Of a stretch of 35,874 nucleotides of DNA, positions 436 through 21,053 are shown piece after piece; positions within the stretch are counted from its first letter, which is position 1; every line of letters begins with the position of its first letter. The translations under genes were made by a program, and so were the position numbers. This DNA comes from a virus. The stretch is taken from positions 1 to 35,874 of the IMG/VR virus record IMGVR_UViG_3300029258_003225. One strand, 5' to 3'. Under the pieces are notes generated by a model. It was not told the origin of the DNA and searched no databases. It was given only the letters and a program-made list of their open reading frames with translations.

Positions 436-794
436 GATTTATTTTCTACACCTAAACCACTACCTTGACCTGTCGCTTGTGCTTTTTCCATGGCCGTTTG
501 AAGAGTCCCAAGTTTATAGATAGTCTCCATTGGGACGCCTTCAGACATAGCCTGATTAAAAGCCATAACTCTTTGCATTGGAGATGCGTCTTGTGGAAGA
601 TTTTGCATTACAGACTGCAAAACAGTTCCCTGTCTTTGAGCTTCTTGTTGTTCTTCTTGACGTAGTTGTTGACGGCGTTCTTCTTCATATTTTCTTTGGC
701 CACGCGTAGCTAAAGCCGACGCAAGAGCGCTACCGGCTGTAGCTATCCCCTCTCTCAATCCTCGATCTGCATCATACGTTATTATTTGCGCCAT
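1..794 (-). CDS. Probable internal virion (ejection-type) protein, N-terminal part; continues at 35439
   Basis: This is the 5' part of a 452-residue gene that crosses the contig join. The ATG at 792-794 begins MAQIITYDADRG and overlaps the end of the upstream S74 gene by 23 bases. The frame stays open to base 1 and resumes exactly in phase at 35439, ending at 34875 (794 + 565 = 1359 bases, 453 codons). Residues of about 30-60 are very rich in Arg, Glu and Gln and look like a coiled coil; the next stretch is helical with many Met and Gln. I do not recognise a catalytic domain. Its place after the tail genes and before another large helical virion protein suggests an ejection or internal core protein of the P22 gp7/gp20/gp16 or T7 gp14-16 kind. 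That role is inferred from position and composition. Confidence 0.75.
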   Translation of the reverse strand, partial: MAQIITYDADRGLREGIATAGSALASALATRGQRKYEEERRQQLRQEEQQEAQRQGTVLQSVMQNLPQDASPMQRVMAFNQAMSEGVPMETIYKLGTLQTAMEKAQATGQGSGLGVENKSQLMDVMKRFGMDENQAEREADLYLSLPTGGRTAYANMFFDRMQRGGFGGAQPQSTGTEKDAAIFNNVPGEIMEQTDVLSSNRRGDVSSTSEEVAGFQWPKLNTFEGLTPKERTTRQKDLFNANAKDFQENKTKQMGYEDELRRL

Positions 795-1743
795 CTGCTT
801 TCTCCAATTTAGCGACTTTTTCGCTTAATTCTTTGACCGAATTTACTAAAAGAGCCATCAGAGCATAAAGATCAACGTGTAAGACGTCATTTATCTCAAC
901 CGTCACATCCTCTGGAAGATCTTCGGCTATTAAACCTACTCGATCTTTTACTAAGGCCTCTTCTTCGTCTTCGATTTTATAATCGTATTTTTTGGCTTCT
1001 ACCTTCTTCAACGATTCTAATCCAAGAGTAAAATCTCTAATATTTTCTTTAACCTTTTTAGAAGACATCATTGCGGCAGCTCCAATTGATCCACCAGCTC
1101 CTATTAAAGAACCTAAAATACCTTGCCTCTGTGAGATCATTGGAGAAAATGTCTGTTGGCCAGCTAATCCGCCAAGGCCACTAAGAGCAGAGAGAATACC
1201 TTGTAAGTCTTGTCCATATGCTGATCTTTGTAGTTCCTGATGTTGCAGTGTCGGTGTTGTAGCACCAATAAGCCCTTGAGCAGCTGCCATTCGTTGCGCT
1301 TGCTGTTGTTGTTGATAAGGTAGATATTGTGCGGAAAGTTGTGTGGTGAGATCTCCTGCGCTTGCTGCCAAAGCTTGGTTAAGGGCGGATGAGGAGCCAG
1401 CTCCCACATCGGAATATCTTTGTTGGATTTCTGGGAGAACTCGTTGTTGGTATTGTTGCATCATTGGATCAACAACGCCTTTTTCAAAGCCCGCCATGTC
1501 ATCTTGTTGTCCGAGAATGCCTTTATAATAATCTCGTGAGGGCTCAAGCATTTTTTCAAATTTGCGTTGGCTTATCATATCTGGGCGCTCTATTCCAGGC
1601 TTTAAGATATCTTTATAAGCACCACGAGAATAATCCGTGAGATGTTTTGATCCTATAATTCCCGAAAGGAACTTTTTCTGATCTTTTGTGAGGAGATCTA
1701 TGTTTTTCTCATGAGTAGATCCGCCTGTAACCGTTTTCCCCAT
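772..1743 (-). CDS. Virion protein with C-terminal S74 intramolecular-chaperone domain
   Basis: The protein has 323 residues. Residues of about 80-200 are Gln/Ala-rich and helical, resembling proteins found near ejection genes in P22-like phages. The last ~95 residues match the peptidase S74 (endosialidase-type chaperone) pattern: SSKKVKENI near residue 230, then KKYDYK, VGLIAEDLPE and VDLYALMALLVNSVKELSEK. In that family the Ser and the following Lys form the self-cleavage dyad, and the released domain acts as a folding chaperone for a trimer. The start has a GGGAG ribosome site 8 bases upstream. S74 domains normally end tail spikes or fibres, so its fusion to an ejection-like body is unusual. 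The alternative is a short tail-tip or fibre protein. Confidence 0.75.
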   Translation of the reverse strand: MGKTVTGGSTHEKNIDLLTKDQKKFLSGIIGSKHLTDYSRGAYKDILKPGIERPDMISQRKFEKMLEPSRDYYKGILGQQDDMAGFEKGVVDPMMQQYQQRVLPEIQQRYSDVGAGSSSALNQALAASAGDLTTQLSAQYLPYQQQQQAQRMAAAQGLIGATTPTLQHQELQRSAYGQDLQGILSALSGLGGLAGQQTFSPMISQRQGILGSLIGAGGSIGAAAMMSSKKVKENIRDFTLGLESLKKVEAKKYDYKIEDEEEALVKDRVGLIAEDLPEDVTVEINDVLHVDLYALMALLVNSVKELSEKVAKLEKADGANNNV

Positions 1744-13939: not shown

Positions 13940-14488
13940 CTAAACGTTTAAATATCGGTATGTAAGTAAAGCGGCTTTACATATGTTGGCTAAAGTATTG
14001 CTTATCGTAAACTCATGGGCAATAGCAGGAGAACCATCCTTGAAAAGCTGTACAAAAAAGAAGTTTTTGGACAGAGTAAGATTGTTAACAGTTGCCAAAT
14101 AGTGGTACAAACAGCCTTGCAGCGGCCATATCTTTGCATCTTTTGACGCGGATGTCTTGTAGTCGATCAAGAATCTATCACCCGATCTTGATTCGGCTAC
14201 AGCATCTATCTTCCCTGTTATTTTAAGTTTATCACAATAAAACCTCTGTTCGCTATGTATCAAATTAAAGCCAGAATCTTTTTGCCATTCTAAAAAACTA
14301 TCGAAGTATCCCTGTGCCTCTTTCGAAACTGGGATAAATGCCATATTGGTAAATGATGATATTGCATCATGAACTTCTGTTCCTATTCTCTGCTTCTTCT
14401 TCAAAATATCTTTTGGTATATGTCCAAACCTGTCCCATTGAGACAGGATAGACGATACTCGTGTGTATCCCTCTTTAATCTGTTCCAT
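13940..14488 (-). CDS. PD-(D/E)XK exonuclease, RecE/lambda-Exo-like partner of RecT
   Basis: This 182-residue protein shows the RecB/Cas4-type nuclease pattern. GTEVH lies at residues 36-40, a Glu in HSEQRF at about 80, and GKIDAVAE at 92-99 provides the metal-binding Asp. The catalytic core is LIDYKTS at 107-113, followed by the QxxxY motif in WPLQGCLYHYL at 121-131. Such enzymes resect double-stranded DNA 5' to 3' and hand the single strand to an annealing protein. Its start overlaps the end of the RecT-like gene by 14 bases, matching the classical exonuclease-annealase pair. Confidence 0.82.
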   Translation of the reverse strand: MEQIKEGYTRVSSILSQWDRFGHIPKDILKKKQRIGTEVHDAISSFTNMAFIPVSKEAQGYFDSFLEWQKDSGFNLIHSEQRFYCDKLKITGKIDAVAESRSGDRFLIDYKTSASKDAKIWPLQGCLYHYLATVNNLTLSKNFFFVQLFKDGSPAIAHEFTISNTLANICKAALLTYRYLNV

Positions 14489-15290
14489 TTTCTAAATTCC
14501 TTTTTCTTTTCTCAAAGTTTTCTAAAAACAGTTCTTTTCTCTCGATCCATAAAGGGACTAATGCCTCTAATGGTCTTGCAGTTTTATTTGCACAAAACTC
14601 AATATATTCAATCATTTCAGGAGTCTTGTCGATTCCAAGAGCACAGGATATCTCTTCAGAGGCTCTTTCTGCTGTGTATTCTTCAGTAGAGACAACTTCC
14701 GCCTCCTCAAATTGTTGCTCTGGCAACTCTTGAACTTCTCCTGTTGCATATGTGCCACATCCTATGACATCGCCAAATAGTCTTTTACCAAGGCGAGACA
14801 TAGCTCTTGAGTACAGCATGTCCTTTGTATATTTGTTCCACCCAGAGTCTCCCCTACAGAGACCAGCTTTTTCAGCCTCTTGAATGCTGAAAGAAACAGT
14901 CATGCTCTCGCCTGTATCTCTCCTCTCACCTTTGATAGTACAGATAGTATCTGATAGCTCAACAATTGTAAGTTTGTGACCCCGTCCCCGTATCAAGGAA
15001 TTCATGGCATGTGGAGCAATCTCTATCTTACCCATGATACAATTCATCCCGCCAAAGACGGCTTGCATTGGTGGGAGCCCAATCTCTTTTGCATAAAGCA
15101 TGATTGAAAAGATCCCTGGGAAACCGCCAAGCTTTTTGAAGAAAGGAGTTTTTGACGCCTCATTTGCTATTTTAGATACAAGCTGTAAATCAGCATCGGT
15201 AACGCTTCTTGATGGAGCTTGATATTGTATTGATTGACGAGCCTGAACTTGCTTCTCAATCTTTTGCTTTTTTTTCTTCTTTTTTGCCAT
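14475..15290 (-). CDS. recT: RecT-family single-strand annealing protein
   Basis: The protein has 271 residues. After a very basic N-terminus (AKKKKKKQKIEKQ) it shows RecT-family features: GGFPGIFSIMLYAKEIGLPP, then QAVFGGMNCIMGKIEIAPHA and KYTKDMLYSRAMSRLGKRLF, ending GDVIGCGTYATGEV. The 'Y(T/K)xDMLxxRAxSRxxRxLFxDVI' element is the usual RecT signature. It anneals complementary strands and promotes strand exchange in phage recombination and concatemer formation. Length agrees with the family. The poly-Lys start is coded by an A-rich run after the preceding gene. Confidence 0.88.
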   Translation of the reverse strand: MAKKKKKKQKIEKQVQARQSIQYQAPSRSVTDADLQLVSKIANEASKTPFFKKLGGFPGIFSIMLYAKEIGLPPMQAVFGGMNCIMGKIEIAPHAMNSLIRGRGHKLTIVELSDTICTIKGERRDTGESMTVSFSIQEAEKAGLCRGDSGWNKYTKDMLYSRAMSRLGKRLFGDVIGCGTYATGEVQELPEQQFEEAEVVSTEEYTAERASEEISCALGIDKTPEMIEYIEFCANKTARPLEALVPLWIERKELFLENFEKRKRNLENGTD

Positions 15291-17769: not shown

Positions 17770-18255
17770 ATGGCTGCCAAGAAAAAGAAAGACGATGATA
17801 AGCCAAGGCCAGGGACTATAGTCAACGGGAAAATGGTGCCACCGCCACCACCACCTCTTCGAGAGTATGATAAGAAGACTTTTGAGGGGTTGTGTTTTGT
17901 GCACTGCACAATTAACGAGATCGTAAACATTTTTCGTACCGATCCAAGGACTCTTGATAAGTGGTGTAAGAGGACTTACGGAGAGGGCTATTCCAGCTGT
18001 TATAAAAAATTTTCAGATGGAGGGAAAGCCTCTCTTAGGCGTATACAAATCAATTTAGCTAAGAAAAACGCCGCCATGGCTATCTGGATGGGCAAACAGT
18101 GGCTAGGACAAAGAGATATACCACAAGAACTAGAGCAGTTTAACGGGAAATTGGCAGTTTTGCTAGATAAACTTGCACATATAAAGCTCAAGGAGATTGA
18201 TGACGCTACAAGTGCCGATGAGCCAGAAGCAGATCAAGTCATTCCAGGAGTCTAA
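17770..18255 (+). CDS. terS: Terminase small subunit
   Basis: The 161-residue protein lies directly upstream of TerL and overlaps it. After a basic, Pro-rich start (KKKKDDDKPRPG, PPPPPP) it has a helix-turn-helix near residues 45-65 (TINEIVNIFRTDPRTLDKWC). Then comes RRIQINLAKKNAAMAIWMGK followed by QWLGQRD, a segment characteristic of small terminase subunits of this type. It would recognise viral DNA and deliver it to TerL. The C-terminal tail is acidic. No cos or pac site could be assigned. Confidence 0.82.
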   Translation: MAAKKKKDDDKPRPGTIVNGKMVPPPPPPLREYDKKTFEGLCFVHCTINEIVNIFRTDPRTLDKWCKRTYGEGYSSCYKKFSDGGKASLRRIQINLAKKNAAMAIWMGKQWLGQRDIPQELEQFNGKLAVLLDKLAHIKLKEIDDATSADEPEADQVIPGV

Positions 18256-20428
18256 CTCTCGTATCAACATCTTTGAGGGCTCTGTACGCGCAGGAAAGTC
18301 GTTCATAGCGCTCGTTAGATGGCTTGAGTTTATTCGTTCTGGGCCAGCTGGACCATTAGTAGCCTGTGGCCGTACAGACGCTACAATCAAGCGTAACATT
18401 GTTGATCCTCTATTTGATCTAGTCGGACCATCAGGGCTAAGATACTTCCCAGGCAAGAGAGAGCTGCACATCTATGGGCGTGTCATGATGCTCATTGGGG
18501 CGAATGACGATCGAGCGGAGGCAAAGATTAGAGGCTCTGAGATAGTAGGGGCATTGCTCGATGAGATTACCATCCTCCCAGAGTCCTTTGTTAAGATGCT
18601 GCTATCTCGTATGTCCATAAGAGGAGCCAAGCTATTTGCTACCACCAACCCAGACTCACCGTATCACTGGGTCAAGAAGGATCTTATAGACAGGAGAAAT
18701 GAACTGGATTGCTCTGTCTTTTCTTTTCGGCTTGATGATAATCCATCCCTTGATCCGTCATTTAAAGAGGCGCTTAAGAAAGAGTACTCAGGACTCTGGT
18801 ATAAGCGATTTATTGAGGGTCAGTGGGTTGTTGCTGAAGGCGCCGTCTATGACTTCTTCGACGAAGAAGTGCACACTATCAAATTTCCTCCACACAATCC
18901 ACGAGAGTATATCGTAGGCGTCGATTATGGCACAACTAACCCAACTGTCTTCAGCTTAATAGGTTACAGTCCAAATTCTTATCCAAACATCTGGCTCCAA
19001 GAGGAGTACTACTATGATTCTAAAGAGCACAATAGGCAAAAGTCTGACTTCGAATACGCCGAAGATTTCAAGAAATTTATTGATGGAAAGCATATCTCAG
19101 CTATCTACATCGACCCATCGGCAGCCTCATTTAAGCAAGAACTCTACCGTAACGGTATAACCAATATCTGCGATGCAGACAATGACGTCCTCTCGGGAAT
19201 TAGATTTACATCTAACCTGCTAACATCAGGAGCCTTAAAGATATGCCAGCAATGCACGAGGACTATTAGAGAGTTTGGTGCTTATGTGTGGGATGCAAGG
19301 GCTACAAAACTAGGTAAAGACGCTCCAATGAAGGTATCAGACCATTGCTTTTGTTGTAAAACCCCCATATTGACTGATCAAGGATACAAACCAATAGAGA
19401 GCCTCAGGAAAGGCGATAATGTTTTAACAACTATAGGCTACCAACCGATAGTAGAAACATTTGAGCGAGAAGCCGATTGCTATGAGTTTGATATCTTAGG
19501 CAAGACTCTCGCATGTACATACGATCACAAGATGTATTTAGCTAACCTGGATGATTACAAAGAGATCAACAAGATTGGGAGCCGAGATATTCAACTAATT
19601 TATTTAGGAGAAGGGGCATGGTCACAACAACAAGATTCGATGGAACAATTTTCAGAAGATATCCAAGCTCAAAAAACAGAACTGATAGAGTCTATTTCAA
19701 GGCTACAAAAGGAAAATATCGAGGAAGATATCTGCATCGAGTCTTATGGGAACGAGAGTTTGGAGAAATTCCAAAAGGATGCCATATTCATCACAAAAAC
19801 AAAGACACAACAGACAATAGCATTGGCAATCTCGAGTGCTGCCGAGCTTTCGACCATCTTTCCGAGCATGGCAGTAATCCTACAGAAAATCAAAGAAGAG
19901 CTCTCAAAGAAAACCTCCCTTATATGCTTGAAAAAGCAAAGCAATGGCACAAAAGTAGAGAGGGAAGCCTTTGGCATAGTCGACATGCAAAAGAGGCCTA
20001 TGCAAAGAGAGAGTATAAATCCTGCACATGTCTTTTCTGTGGAGAATCCTTCACAAGTAGAGACCCAAAAAAAGCAAAGTTTTGTAGCAATAAGTGTAAG
20101 GCTGCAAACAGACGGAGAAGTAAGATTGATAATGAGAAAAGAAAATGCCCTCTTTGCGGAAAGCTTTTCTCTAGAAACAAATACGACAAAAGAAAATTCT
20201 GCTCAATCTCGTGCGGAAGGAAAGCCTATTGGAAGGCAAAAAGTATATAACCTACACATAGCCAATAAACACGAGTATTTTGCGGATGGTATCTTGTCAA
20301 AGAATTGTATGGACAGCTTAAGGTACGGTGTATTTTCCCACTTTTTCTCCCAAGACGCCGTCGGCTATGGTATGTCCAAGTCTGATGCTAAGGCACTTGA
20401 GGATCGATATAAGGTAAGGATGTATTAA
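18200..20428 (+). CDS. terL: Terminase large subunit interrupted by an intein
   Basis: The ATG at 18200 has AAGGAG 4 bases upstream; the gene overlaps TerS by 56 bases. The ATPase has Walker A GSVRAGKS (residues 27-34), Walker B ALLDEIT, and the coupling segment FATTNPDSPYHW. The RNase H-like nuclease shows VGVDYGTTNPT and IYIDPSA. The third catalytic Asp lies in SDH|CMDSLRYGVFSH, which is split by a 320-residue intein (residues 383-702). After splicing the protein would be about 422 residues, normal for the family. The motor translocates DNA into the procapsid and cuts concatemers. Without splicing the nuclease site would be broken. Confidence 0.93.
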   Translation: MTLQVPMSQKQIKSFQESNSRINIFEGSVRAGKSFIALVRWLEFIRSGPAGPLVACGRTDATIKRNIVDPLFDLVGPSGLRYFPGKRELHIYGRVMMLIGANDDRAEAKIRGSEIVGALLDEITILPESFVKMLLSRMSIRGAKLFATTNPDSPYHWVKKDLIDRRNELDCSVFSFRLDDNPSLDPSFKEALKKEYSGLWYKRFIEGQWVVAEGAVYDFFDEEVHTIKFPPHNPREYIVGVDYGTTNPTVFSLIGYSPNSYPNIWLQEEYYYDSKEHNRQKSDFEYAEDFKKFIDGKHISAIYIDPSAASFKQELYRNGITNICDADNDVLSGIRFTSNLLTSGALKICQQCTRTIREFGAYVWDARATKLGKDAPMKVSDHCFCCKTPILTDQGYKPIESLRKGDNVLTTIGYQPIVETFEREADCYEFDILGKTLACTYDHKMYLANLDDYKEINKIGSRDIQLIYLGEGAWSQQQDSMEQFSEDIQAQKTELIESISRLQKENIEEDICIESYGNESLEKFQKDAIFITKTKTQQTIALAISSAAELSTIFPSMAVILQKIKEELSKKTSLICLKKQSNGTKVEREAFGIVDMQKRPMQRESINPAHVFSVENPSQVETQKKQSFVAISVRLQTDGEVRLIMRKENALFAESFSLETNTTKENSAQSRAEGKPIGRQKVYNLHIANKHEYFADGILSKNCMDSLRYGVFSHFFSQDAVGYGMSKSDAKALEDRYKVRMY
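19346..20305 (+). other. Intein in TerL, 320 residues
   Basis: The intein starts with Cys (CFCCKTPILTDQGYKPIESL, then RKGDNVLT: block A). It has the block B TxxH motif in LACTYDHKMYL (Thr 440, His 443 of the precursor). It ends with a block F/G-like segment (KVYNLHIANKHEYFADGILS, then KN), followed by Cys as the +1 extein residue. The penultimate residue is Lys rather than the usual His. The splicing domains are about 90 residues at the front and 18 at the back. The ~210 residues between them are low-complexity Ser/Gln/Glu/Lys-rich in this frame and overlap an HNH gene in another frame. Confidence 0.85.
19618..20250 (+). CDS. HNH homing endonuclease nested out of frame inside the TerL intein
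   Basis: The 210-residue reading frame is +2 relative to terL and has its own AGGAG 7 bases before the ATG. It starts MVTTTRFDGTIFRRYPSSKN. The HNH core is GRYLHRVLWEREFGEIPKGC, then HIHHKNKDTTDNSIGNLE. Two tandem zinc ribbons follow near the C-terminus: CLFCGESF...FCSNKC and CPLCGKLF...FCSISC. These are much more protein-like than the terL-frame translation of the same bases, so this frame is the evolved endonuclease. It would cut intein-less terL alleles to spread the element. Normally an intein endonuclease is fused in frame; here it is a separate nested gene. Confidence 0.85.
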   Translation: MVTTTRFDGTIFRRYPSSKNRTDRVYFKATKGKYRGRYLHRVLWEREFGEIPKGCHIHHKNKDTTDNSIGNLECCRAFDHLSEHGSNPTENQRRALKENLPYMLEKAKQWHKSREGSLWHSRHAKEAYAKREYKSCTCLFCGESFTSRDPKKAKFCSNKCKAANRRRSKIDNEKRKCPLCGKLFSRNKYDKRKFCSISCGRKAYWKAKSI

Positions 20429-20458
20429 AAAAAGAGCGGCCCACACTAAAGACCGCCC
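20427..20458 (-). terminator. Minus-strand terminator-like hairpin downstream of terL
   Basis: GAGCGG (20434-20439) pairs with CCGCCC (20453-20458), one G-U pair included. On the minus strand the stem is followed by seven T residues. It would stop leftward RNA from entering terL antisense. On the plus strand no T-run follows, so it is not an obvious terL terminator. Confidence 0.5.
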
Positions 20459-20533
20459 AAACCAAGCTAACTAAGAGAATTAGCAAGATTAGTATAGTCG
20501 CCTAACTCAATTTAAGTATATTTAAACCTTTAG

Positions 20534-20568
20534 AAAAAAAAGAAGGCCGTGCCGTTAAGGCAACGGCC
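20534..20568 (-). terminator. Second minus-strand terminator-like hairpin
   Basis: GGCCGT (20545-20550) pairs with ACGGCC (20563-20568), with an alternative inner stem GCCGTT/AACGGC. The minus-strand stem runs into TTCT followed by seven T residues. Together with the hairpin at 20434 it gives two in-line leftward stops between the origin region and terL. Confidence 0.5.
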
Positions 20569-20572
20569 CATG

Positions 20573-20591
20573 CAAAGTATGTTATACTTTG
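20573..20591. promoter_or_regulatory. 8-bp inverted repeat next to the iterons
   Basis: CAAAGTAT-GTT-ATACTTTG is a perfect inverted repeat 32 bases upstream of the first iteron. It is a likely dimer binding site or part of the origin. Confidence 0.45.
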
Positions 20592-20623
20592 TTAATTATA
20601 GGACTTCGATTTTAGGAGAGGAA

Positions 20624-20733
20624 TTTGCAACAATAGGTGGTCGACTTTGCAACAATAGGTGGTCGACTTTGCAACAATAGGTGGTCGACTTTGCAACAAT
20701 AGGTGGTCGACTTTGCAACAATAGGTGGTCGAC
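20624..20733 (+). repeat. Five perfect 22-bp iterons, probable replication origin
   Basis: Five head-to-tail copies of a 22-base unit, beginning TTTGCAACAAT and ending GGTGGTCGAC, lie at 20624, 20646, 20668, 20690 and 20712 with no spacer and no mismatch. The period equals about two helical turns, so a bound protein would face the same side at each copy, as in iteron origins. The initiator-like gene starts 320 bases downstream. Confidence 0.85.
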
Positions 20734-21053
20734 TTTTTACGAATTTTCGATTGCCACTGATTTTAGAAGAACATCAAATGATGGGGCCCCAGGTTTTACC
20801 CCGAGAGCCCCAAAAAGATGACGCAAGAAAAAGAAATCCCTTGCGTAGTATTAATCATCATAGATAGTCTAGGTTTTCATTTTCTTCTGGAGAAATAGTC
20901 CAGAACAAAAACCAATACAATCGCCAAATTGTATTTGTCGACGGATCCATCTGATCGACACTAAGATTAACATTTTAGGGTTTAATTCTAAAGTACTCCA
21001 GAGAAAAGTGAAACAAAAAGTAAATTTTTGACAACTTTAAGCGAGTACATCTT
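20734..21053. other. Origin-proximal non-coding region
   Basis: No convincing gene is present. The region has inverted repeats TGGGGC/GCCCCA (about 20782-20813) and ACGCAAG/CTTGCGT (about 20821-20846). A TTGACA hexamer lies at about 21028, but a 17-base spacer would put its -10 at the initiator start codon, so a normal promoter is not evident. These structures could serve origin melting or leader control. Confidence 0.45.

Follow-up and report, generated by a model that had tools for sequence, protein, structure and literature searches.

How can an intein retain an intact endonuclease gene that is out of frame with the intein itself? The question is raised by the large terminase subunit gene (terL) of an uncultivated-virus record (IMG/VR IMGVR_UViG_3300029258_003225), which was analysed over its whole 35,874 nucleotides (hereafter the window). 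A first-pass annotation, made from the letters of this DNA alone, had described a TerL intein with splicing blocks at both ends and, nested within it in the +2 frame, a complete HNH endonuclease gene with two zinc ribbons and its own ribosome site. We have characterized both elements and compared them with those of related viruses.

Architecture of the terL insertion

The terL ORF comprises 743 aa when counted from a TTG codon, although a nearby ATG may be the real start. Its intein was delimited correctly by the first-pass annotation (Table 1). It opens with CFCCKT, in which C1 is the nucleophile (the codon begins at 19346), has the TxxH motif of block B and ends with N320 (codon 20303-20305) followed by a cysteine. 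Two models matched the intein above cut-off, Pfam Hint_2 at the N end and TIGR01443 intein_Cterm at the C end. The fold is that of a Hint domain (Foldseek match to the gp41-1 intein, E 2e-5; profile search, E 9e-19), and the best PDB matches of the splicing domain were gp41-1, a split intein from fractured phage genes, and then other inteins. The junctions read SDH/CFCC...SKN/CMDSLRY, where a slash marks the point of splicing and the last cysteine is the +1 extein residue. The ligated extein would thus be DH-CMDSLRY and not DH-MDSLRY as first proposed; many intein-free relatives already have DHCxDSxRY. The insertion is precise and lies at a conserved host site, TerLs that lack it carrying DHxxDSxRY at this point. 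A group I or II intron was ruled out as the identity of the insert, as there was no Rfam intron match in 18100-20700.

Table 1. Features of the terL locus in the window, and related arrangements at other viral loci (L numbers).
Feature	Position	Strand	Evidence or remark
terL, large terminase subunit with intein	18197..20428	+	TIGR01547 phage_term_2 E 8e-38; Pfam Terminase_6N E 2e-12
TerL N-extein, ending ...KVSDH	18197..19345	+	51-65% identity to mostly intein-free TerLs that run straight on as DHxxDSxRY
Intein, 320 aa, C1 to N320	19346..20305	+	Hint_2 and intein_Cterm above cut-off; C1, T58, H61 and N320 invariant (40 aligned inteins)
N-terminal splicing half, blocks A and B, T58-Y-D-H61 at 19517-19528	19346..19615	+	AlphaFold2 pLDDT 80-97 per 10-residue block; Hint match to gp41-1 intein
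Shine-Dalgarno AGGAG of nested HNH gene, 7 nt ahead of ATG	19606..19610	+	Sequence; anti-SD duplex -7.3 kcal/mol versus control median -3.0
Nested HNH endonuclease gene, 210 aa, +2 frame relative to terL	19618..20250 (ATG to TAA)	+	HNH_3 E 8e-16; phrog_15471 (PHROG HNH endonuclease) E 9e-32; AlphaFold2 mean pLDDT 94.6; I-HmuI the sole PDB sequence relative
HNH_3 catalytic domain (HIHH...N...N...H)	19726..19842	+	Pfam HNH_3; H58, H59 and H80 invariant in alignment A1
Zinc ribbon 1, C138/C141/C156/C160	20029..20097	+	Invariant in alignment A1
Zinc ribbon 2, C177/C180/C195/C199	20146..20214	+	Alignment A1: three Cys invariant, fourth nearly so
C-terminal splicing half, blocks F and G, ...KVYNLHIANKHEYFADGILSKN	20222..20305	+	TIGR01443; AlphaFold2 pLDDT 94-96, residues 291-320
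TerL C-extein, CMDSLRY...	20306..20428	+	Alignment to empty alleles DHCxDSxRY
Split-TerL loci, HNH between or overlapping the halves	L030, L032, L040, L060, L061, L064, L069, L101, L103, L115, L117, L125, L129, L138, L148		
Second TerL intein of L124, in P-loop	L124:503-1387		Nested NUMOD4-HNH_3 gene 687-1274, opposite phase
First TerL intein of L072, in P-loop (...GGSR/C to HHN/SGKT)	L072:598-1551		HTH-HNH_3 gene 704-1450, minus strand (antisense)

The nested gene is complete, as had been claimed: its ORF, its HNH_3 and PHROG matches, both Cys4 ribbons and the AGGAG element are all present. The HNH motif and the DNA-binding modules of a homing endonuclease are thus intact, and the AlphaFold2 model is confident along its whole length. 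A Foldseek search of this model against the PDB gave no confident match, the top hit being I-HmuI (E 0.66). From 19555, ahead of its own ATG, the HNH frame is already open, and so overlaps the end of the N splicing half; its stop codon falls within block F of the C-terminal half.

Stop codons are excluded from the overlapped TerL frame

There is no TerL-frame stop over the HNH gene in the window, in agreement with the first-pass annotation; the third frame has 17. The accompanying argument that a random frame would meet several stops was overstated where only the window is considered: if codons are redrawn from local usage under an unchanged HNH protein, 2.4 TerL-frame stops are expected and the probability of finding none is 0.0375. 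By itself the open frame is suggestive, being only mildly improbable. The argument is borne out by relatives. These were gathered with an HNH protein query, which is blind to the host frame, first as 69 loci and then as 150, encoding 125 distinct HNH proteins. In 82 of the 125, a single ORF contains both splicing halves and the HNH gene occupies another frame, although these counts are not natural frequencies, nor the 82 loci 82 independent origins, because loci were found through their resemblance to a nested HNH and duplicates were discarded only when the proteins were identical. The nested phase is the same in 82/82, and the TerL frames of these loci contain not one stop over the HNH gene, versus 351 expected.

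Relatives with other arrangements behave differently. Stops per gene in the corresponding phase numbered 6.67 in split relatives (5.17 expected) and 6.08 in free-standing ones (5.23 expected, with L096, described below, set aside), while the third, unused frame of the nested copies had 20.3 versus 19.9 expected. Exclusion of stops is therefore specific to the nested copies. A frameshift fusing the HNH frame to the intein, or stops in the overlap, had been named at the outset as observations that would speak against a nested gene. No in-frame fusion was found among the 125 homologues, the HNH gene being out of frame in the window and at all 82 nested loci, and overlap stops are confined to loci with TerL in two ORFs or with a free-standing HNH gene. 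We conclude that the nested layout, present in more than 80 distinct viral sequences, is a real and widespread selfish element and not a chance overlap.

Unequal selection on the two frames

A codon-level comparison of both frames across relatives, as suggested in the first-pass annotation, revealed purifying selection on the HNH frame, with dN/dS of 0.08-0.31 in closely related nested pairs and 0.12-0.25 in free-standing pairs. In the TerL phase of the overlap the values were 0.9-1.7 for nested copies and 0.93-2.1 for free-standing controls. The spectra of changes by codon position were also alike, with 183/334 changes at HNH third positions in nested copies versus 97/179 in free-standing ones (Fisher p 0.93). 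As each such change alters position 2 of a TerL-frame codon, this similarity indicates that, within the reach of the test, the overlapped TerL frame is constrained only against stops. The view that selection has kept this DNA for two purposes at once consequently stands in part: both frames are kept readable, but the HNH frame is kept at the amino-acid level and the TerL frame by stop exclusion alone.

Structure prediction gave a similar picture. AlphaFold2 was confident for intein residues 1-90 and 291-320 (80-97 per block), whereas the middle scored mostly below 60, with one helical stretch reaching 77. The overlapped TerL frame is a stop-free and, as modelled, mostly unstructured linker, not a second conserved protein. 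A search of IMG/VR with the TerL-frame intein as query returned no matches while HNH-frame queries worked, consistent with a lack of conservation in that frame. Matches to phrog_30251/35162 had hinted at a conserved TerL-frame overlap; given the spectra and dN/dS values, these are best read as a shadow of HNH conservation. At one locus (L003:2365-3015) the nested HNH gene has a premature stop and the TerL frame is still open, a case of endonuclease decay without loss of the intein.

Translation start of the nested gene

Of the 81 nested genes open to examination, 79 had an in-frame start codon (67 ATG and 12 GTG), mostly 3-5 codons ahead of the conserved region. The median anti-SD duplex was -5.4 at nested starts versus -3.0 at control starts within TerL, and 44% of nested starts reached -6, versus 13% of controls. 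These sequence features support independent initiation of translation in the nested HNH genes; the Shine-Dalgarno element is weak or absent in about one-third of nested copies and two have no recognised start, so that initiation could sometimes work otherwise.

Split, free-standing and antisense relatives

The halves of the intein are in one ORF in the window. In 15 relatives, including Vibrio phages 1.238/1.245, Brochothrix BL3 and Lactobacillus CL2, TerL-IntN, HNH and IntC-TerL are separate ORFs, which is the arrangement of a split intein. Free-standing relatives adjoin terL in 21 of 25 cases. On a tree of 119 HNH proteins, the nested, split and free states must have changed into one another 19 times or more, and its starred branches alone force at least 4 changes for the nested state. 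The tree is unrooted and weakly resolved, so that the direction of change cannot be read from it.

Two further TerL inteins, each known from a single locus and both in the P-loop, show that HNH genes of other types have established themselves inside TerL inteins, in another phase or on the opposite strand. That of L124, whose nested gene is in the opposite phase, has no host-frame stop versus 14.6 expected (none of 2000 draws fell below 6). That of L072, in which the HNH gene is antisense, has none versus 4.1 expected (P 0.009); the terL frame of this locus is apparently shifted downstream, and the ORF ends at 2034.

Two more loci have composite arrangements. At L096:2300-3769 terL has a free-standing HNH gene downstream of it, and beyond that gene the TerL C-terminus is nearly duplicated (GDCKRYDLCNFEYTTFKNLGHYQKR) in the nested phase, with no nested-phase stop over the HNH gene; from its sequence, this looks like a nested element detached through duplication of the 3' end of terL. 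A single TerL ORF at L042:399-4814 contains three inteins, one with an in-frame LAGLIDADG endonuclease, one of conventional appearance and one with a nested HNH gene. Overlaps of HNH and host genes annotated in Enterococcus phage SSsP-1 and Lactobacillus phage BH1 were considered as parallels and set aside, since only short ends overlap.

Insertion site and distribution

Of about 25 close relatives of the window's TerL, mostly 51-65% identical to it, three carry the intein as the window does. Where the site was covered, the remaining close TerLs read through it as uninterrupted DHxxDSxRY or close variants, and thus terL alleles without the insert, anticipated by the first-pass annotation, do exist. 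In most close relatives no HNH gene was found in terL or at the adjacent positions; one locus with an empty site (L178) has an HNH relative immediately downstream of terL. Among occupied sites the insertion point shifts by a few codons inside the motif (DH/C, DHA/C and DAMDS/C).

Identity between loci was 41% for HNH, 36% for the splicing domain and 21% for TerL. The first two are more alike than TerL, as would be expected of mobile elements, although this is an indirect sign of mobility because proteins of the HNH class evolve more slowly than TerL for other reasons too. HNH and TerL distances correlate (r 0.58), indicating considerable vertical inheritance. The presence of the element among close TerL relatives is sporadic. 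A locus near-identical to another (L007:2253-2363, compared with L006) is without ~20 codons covering the intein C-terminus and the DAIRY motif, and is either a splicing-dead allele or an assembly error.

Discussion

We assign a probability of roughly 0.85 to the reading that the insertion is a splicing mini-intein in TerL which carries an independent, out-of-frame homing endonuclease gene. The Hint domain would splice in cis from between DH and CMDSLRY, close to the TerL C-terminus, and the +2-frame HNH gene, located between blocks B and F where inteins usually hold their endonuclease, would be translated separately. Ribosomes in the terL frame would make a precursor whose intein includes a linker of ~200 unstructured residues, and self-excision of the intein would leave TerL ligated. 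Ribosomes starting at the internal ATG would produce free HNH protein, predicted to cut intein-free terL at or near the DHxxDSxRY codons, and repair by recombination would then copy the whole intein with its nested gene into the cut allele. Homing would maintain the HNH frame, and the TerL frame on the same DNA would be maintained only as stop-free. The window also encodes a RecT-like annealing protein (14475-15290, minus strand), which could serve recombination in homing.

Three other readings of the locus were weighed. An HNH protein that acts as a DNA-packaging partner of terminase, like the HK97-type HNH beside terminase genes, and lies inside terL for co-expression would account for the position of 21/25 free-standing relatives next to terL, and terminase-adjacent HNH proteins can assist cos cleavage (discussed in PMC10448857). 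Sporadic presence in close relatives ill suits a packaging part, however, the family is HNH_3 with an intron homing enzyme, I-HmuI, as its sole PDB sequence relative, and a part in packaging would leave unexplained why the gene is found in an intein, at the place where endonucleases usually lie; we regard this role as improbable. A programmed frameshift by which translation passes from the N splicing half to the HNH frame, making the element a fused intein in disguise, could draw on the open HNH frame ahead of the ATG, but is still harder to accept: a start codon stands at a nearly fixed place in 79/81 nested copies, with Shine-Dalgarno elements better than those of internal controls, the same gene is an ordinary ORF in split and free-standing relatives, and one frameshift would leave the product without its C splicing half because the HNH stop lies within block F. 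That the intein, the HNH gene or both are decaying relics and the overlap coincidental is suggested by the HNH-frame stop in L003 and by the chance of 0.04 that the window alone would be stop-free; with 82 loci free of TerL-frame stops, invariant catalytic residues and an HNH dN/dS well below 1, we give this account almost no weight.

The mini-intein with an independent endonuclease gene, our preferred reading, leaves two possible origins. Invasion of a mini-intein by a free-standing, terL-adjacent HNH gene, the route envisaged in the first-pass annotation, fits the free and split relatives beside terL and the opposite-phase and antisense nested genes, and is probably correct, though the order of events which it implies is not readable from the unrooted tree. 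Alternatively, a frameshift in an intein whose HNH domain was fused could have produced the nesting. The nested gene has the same position as fused endonuclease domains (PMC6801210), and a tree that leaves events unordered would permit this derivation. We consider it unlikely, as none of the 125 homologues is fused, free-standing and split members adjoining terL are common, and the antisense HNH gene of another TerL intein is not derivable by frameshift from an in-frame fusion.

Several known systems share parts of this arrangement. Dassa, in 2009, reportedly described fractured genes, in which the intein is split and an endonuclease gene lies at the break. The 15 split relatives (TerL-IntN, HNH, IntC-TerL) resemble these, as does a splicing domain whose nearest PDB relative is gp41-1, but in the window the halves form one ORF overlapped by the HNH ORF. 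Endonuclease domains of inteins occupy one conserved position (Beyer, 2019; PMC6801210); canonical inteins with fused endonucleases likewise have a Hint domain with the endonuclease between its halves, whereas here the endonuclease is a separate out-of-frame ORF and the in-frame insert is unstructured. TerL inteins are also common in mycobacteriophages, but are located in the ATPase domain (Kelley, 2016; PMC5050341) and not near the C-terminus at DHxxDAxRY as here. In collaborative homing, discussed for introns with adjacent free-standing endonucleases (PMC10448857), splicing element and endonuclease are similarly separate units with one target site; here, the protein would be what is spliced, and splicing element and endonuclease gene overlap.

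The closest parallel is with ShiLan-type out-of-frame HNH insertions in phage methylases, whose host frames are open (Arsenault, 2025; PMC11855218). Both involve a zinc-finger HNH gene hidden in another frame of a phage gene, an open host frame and a disjunct distribution. No splicing motifs were found in the ShiLan-type insert, which was argued to be unspliced and not an intein, and its start is a GTG without a Shine-Dalgarno sequence; in the window, full intein blocks flank the HNH gene, a Shine-Dalgarno element is present and the host gene is terL. The same paper cites a preprint on non-canonical actinobacteriophage inteins (10.1101/2025.01.02.630785) for overlapping frames. Full-text searches of the literature, apart from that preprint, yielded no other account of such overlapping genes, so that any priority for inteins is provisional.

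We are inclined to think, with some reserve, that such ‘overprinted inteins’, mini-inteins with an independent endonuclease gene in another frame or strand and held by stop exclusion alone, form a widespread and so far undescribed class. If so, they would connect split inteins with contiguous ones, and both with free-standing endonuclease genes, because one stop in the overlap and a new start for the C half would yield a fractured gene. This bears on how inteins acquire endonucleases, on why these occupy a single position and on the origin of split inteins. As one HNH family occurs at terL in three states, nested, between split halves and free-standing, the steps of invasion and fracture are directly testable. 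The locus also offers a clear-cut example of gene overlap, where protein conservation acts on one frame and all that is conserved in the other is its freedom from stops, and it is a warning that a ‘low-complexity intein’ can conceal an intact endonuclease gene.

Downstream of terL, between it and a replication O-like gene, positions 20624-20736 of the window hold five perfect copies of a 22-bp repeat (TTTGCAACAATAGGTGGTCGAC), perhaps an origin or a packaging signal.
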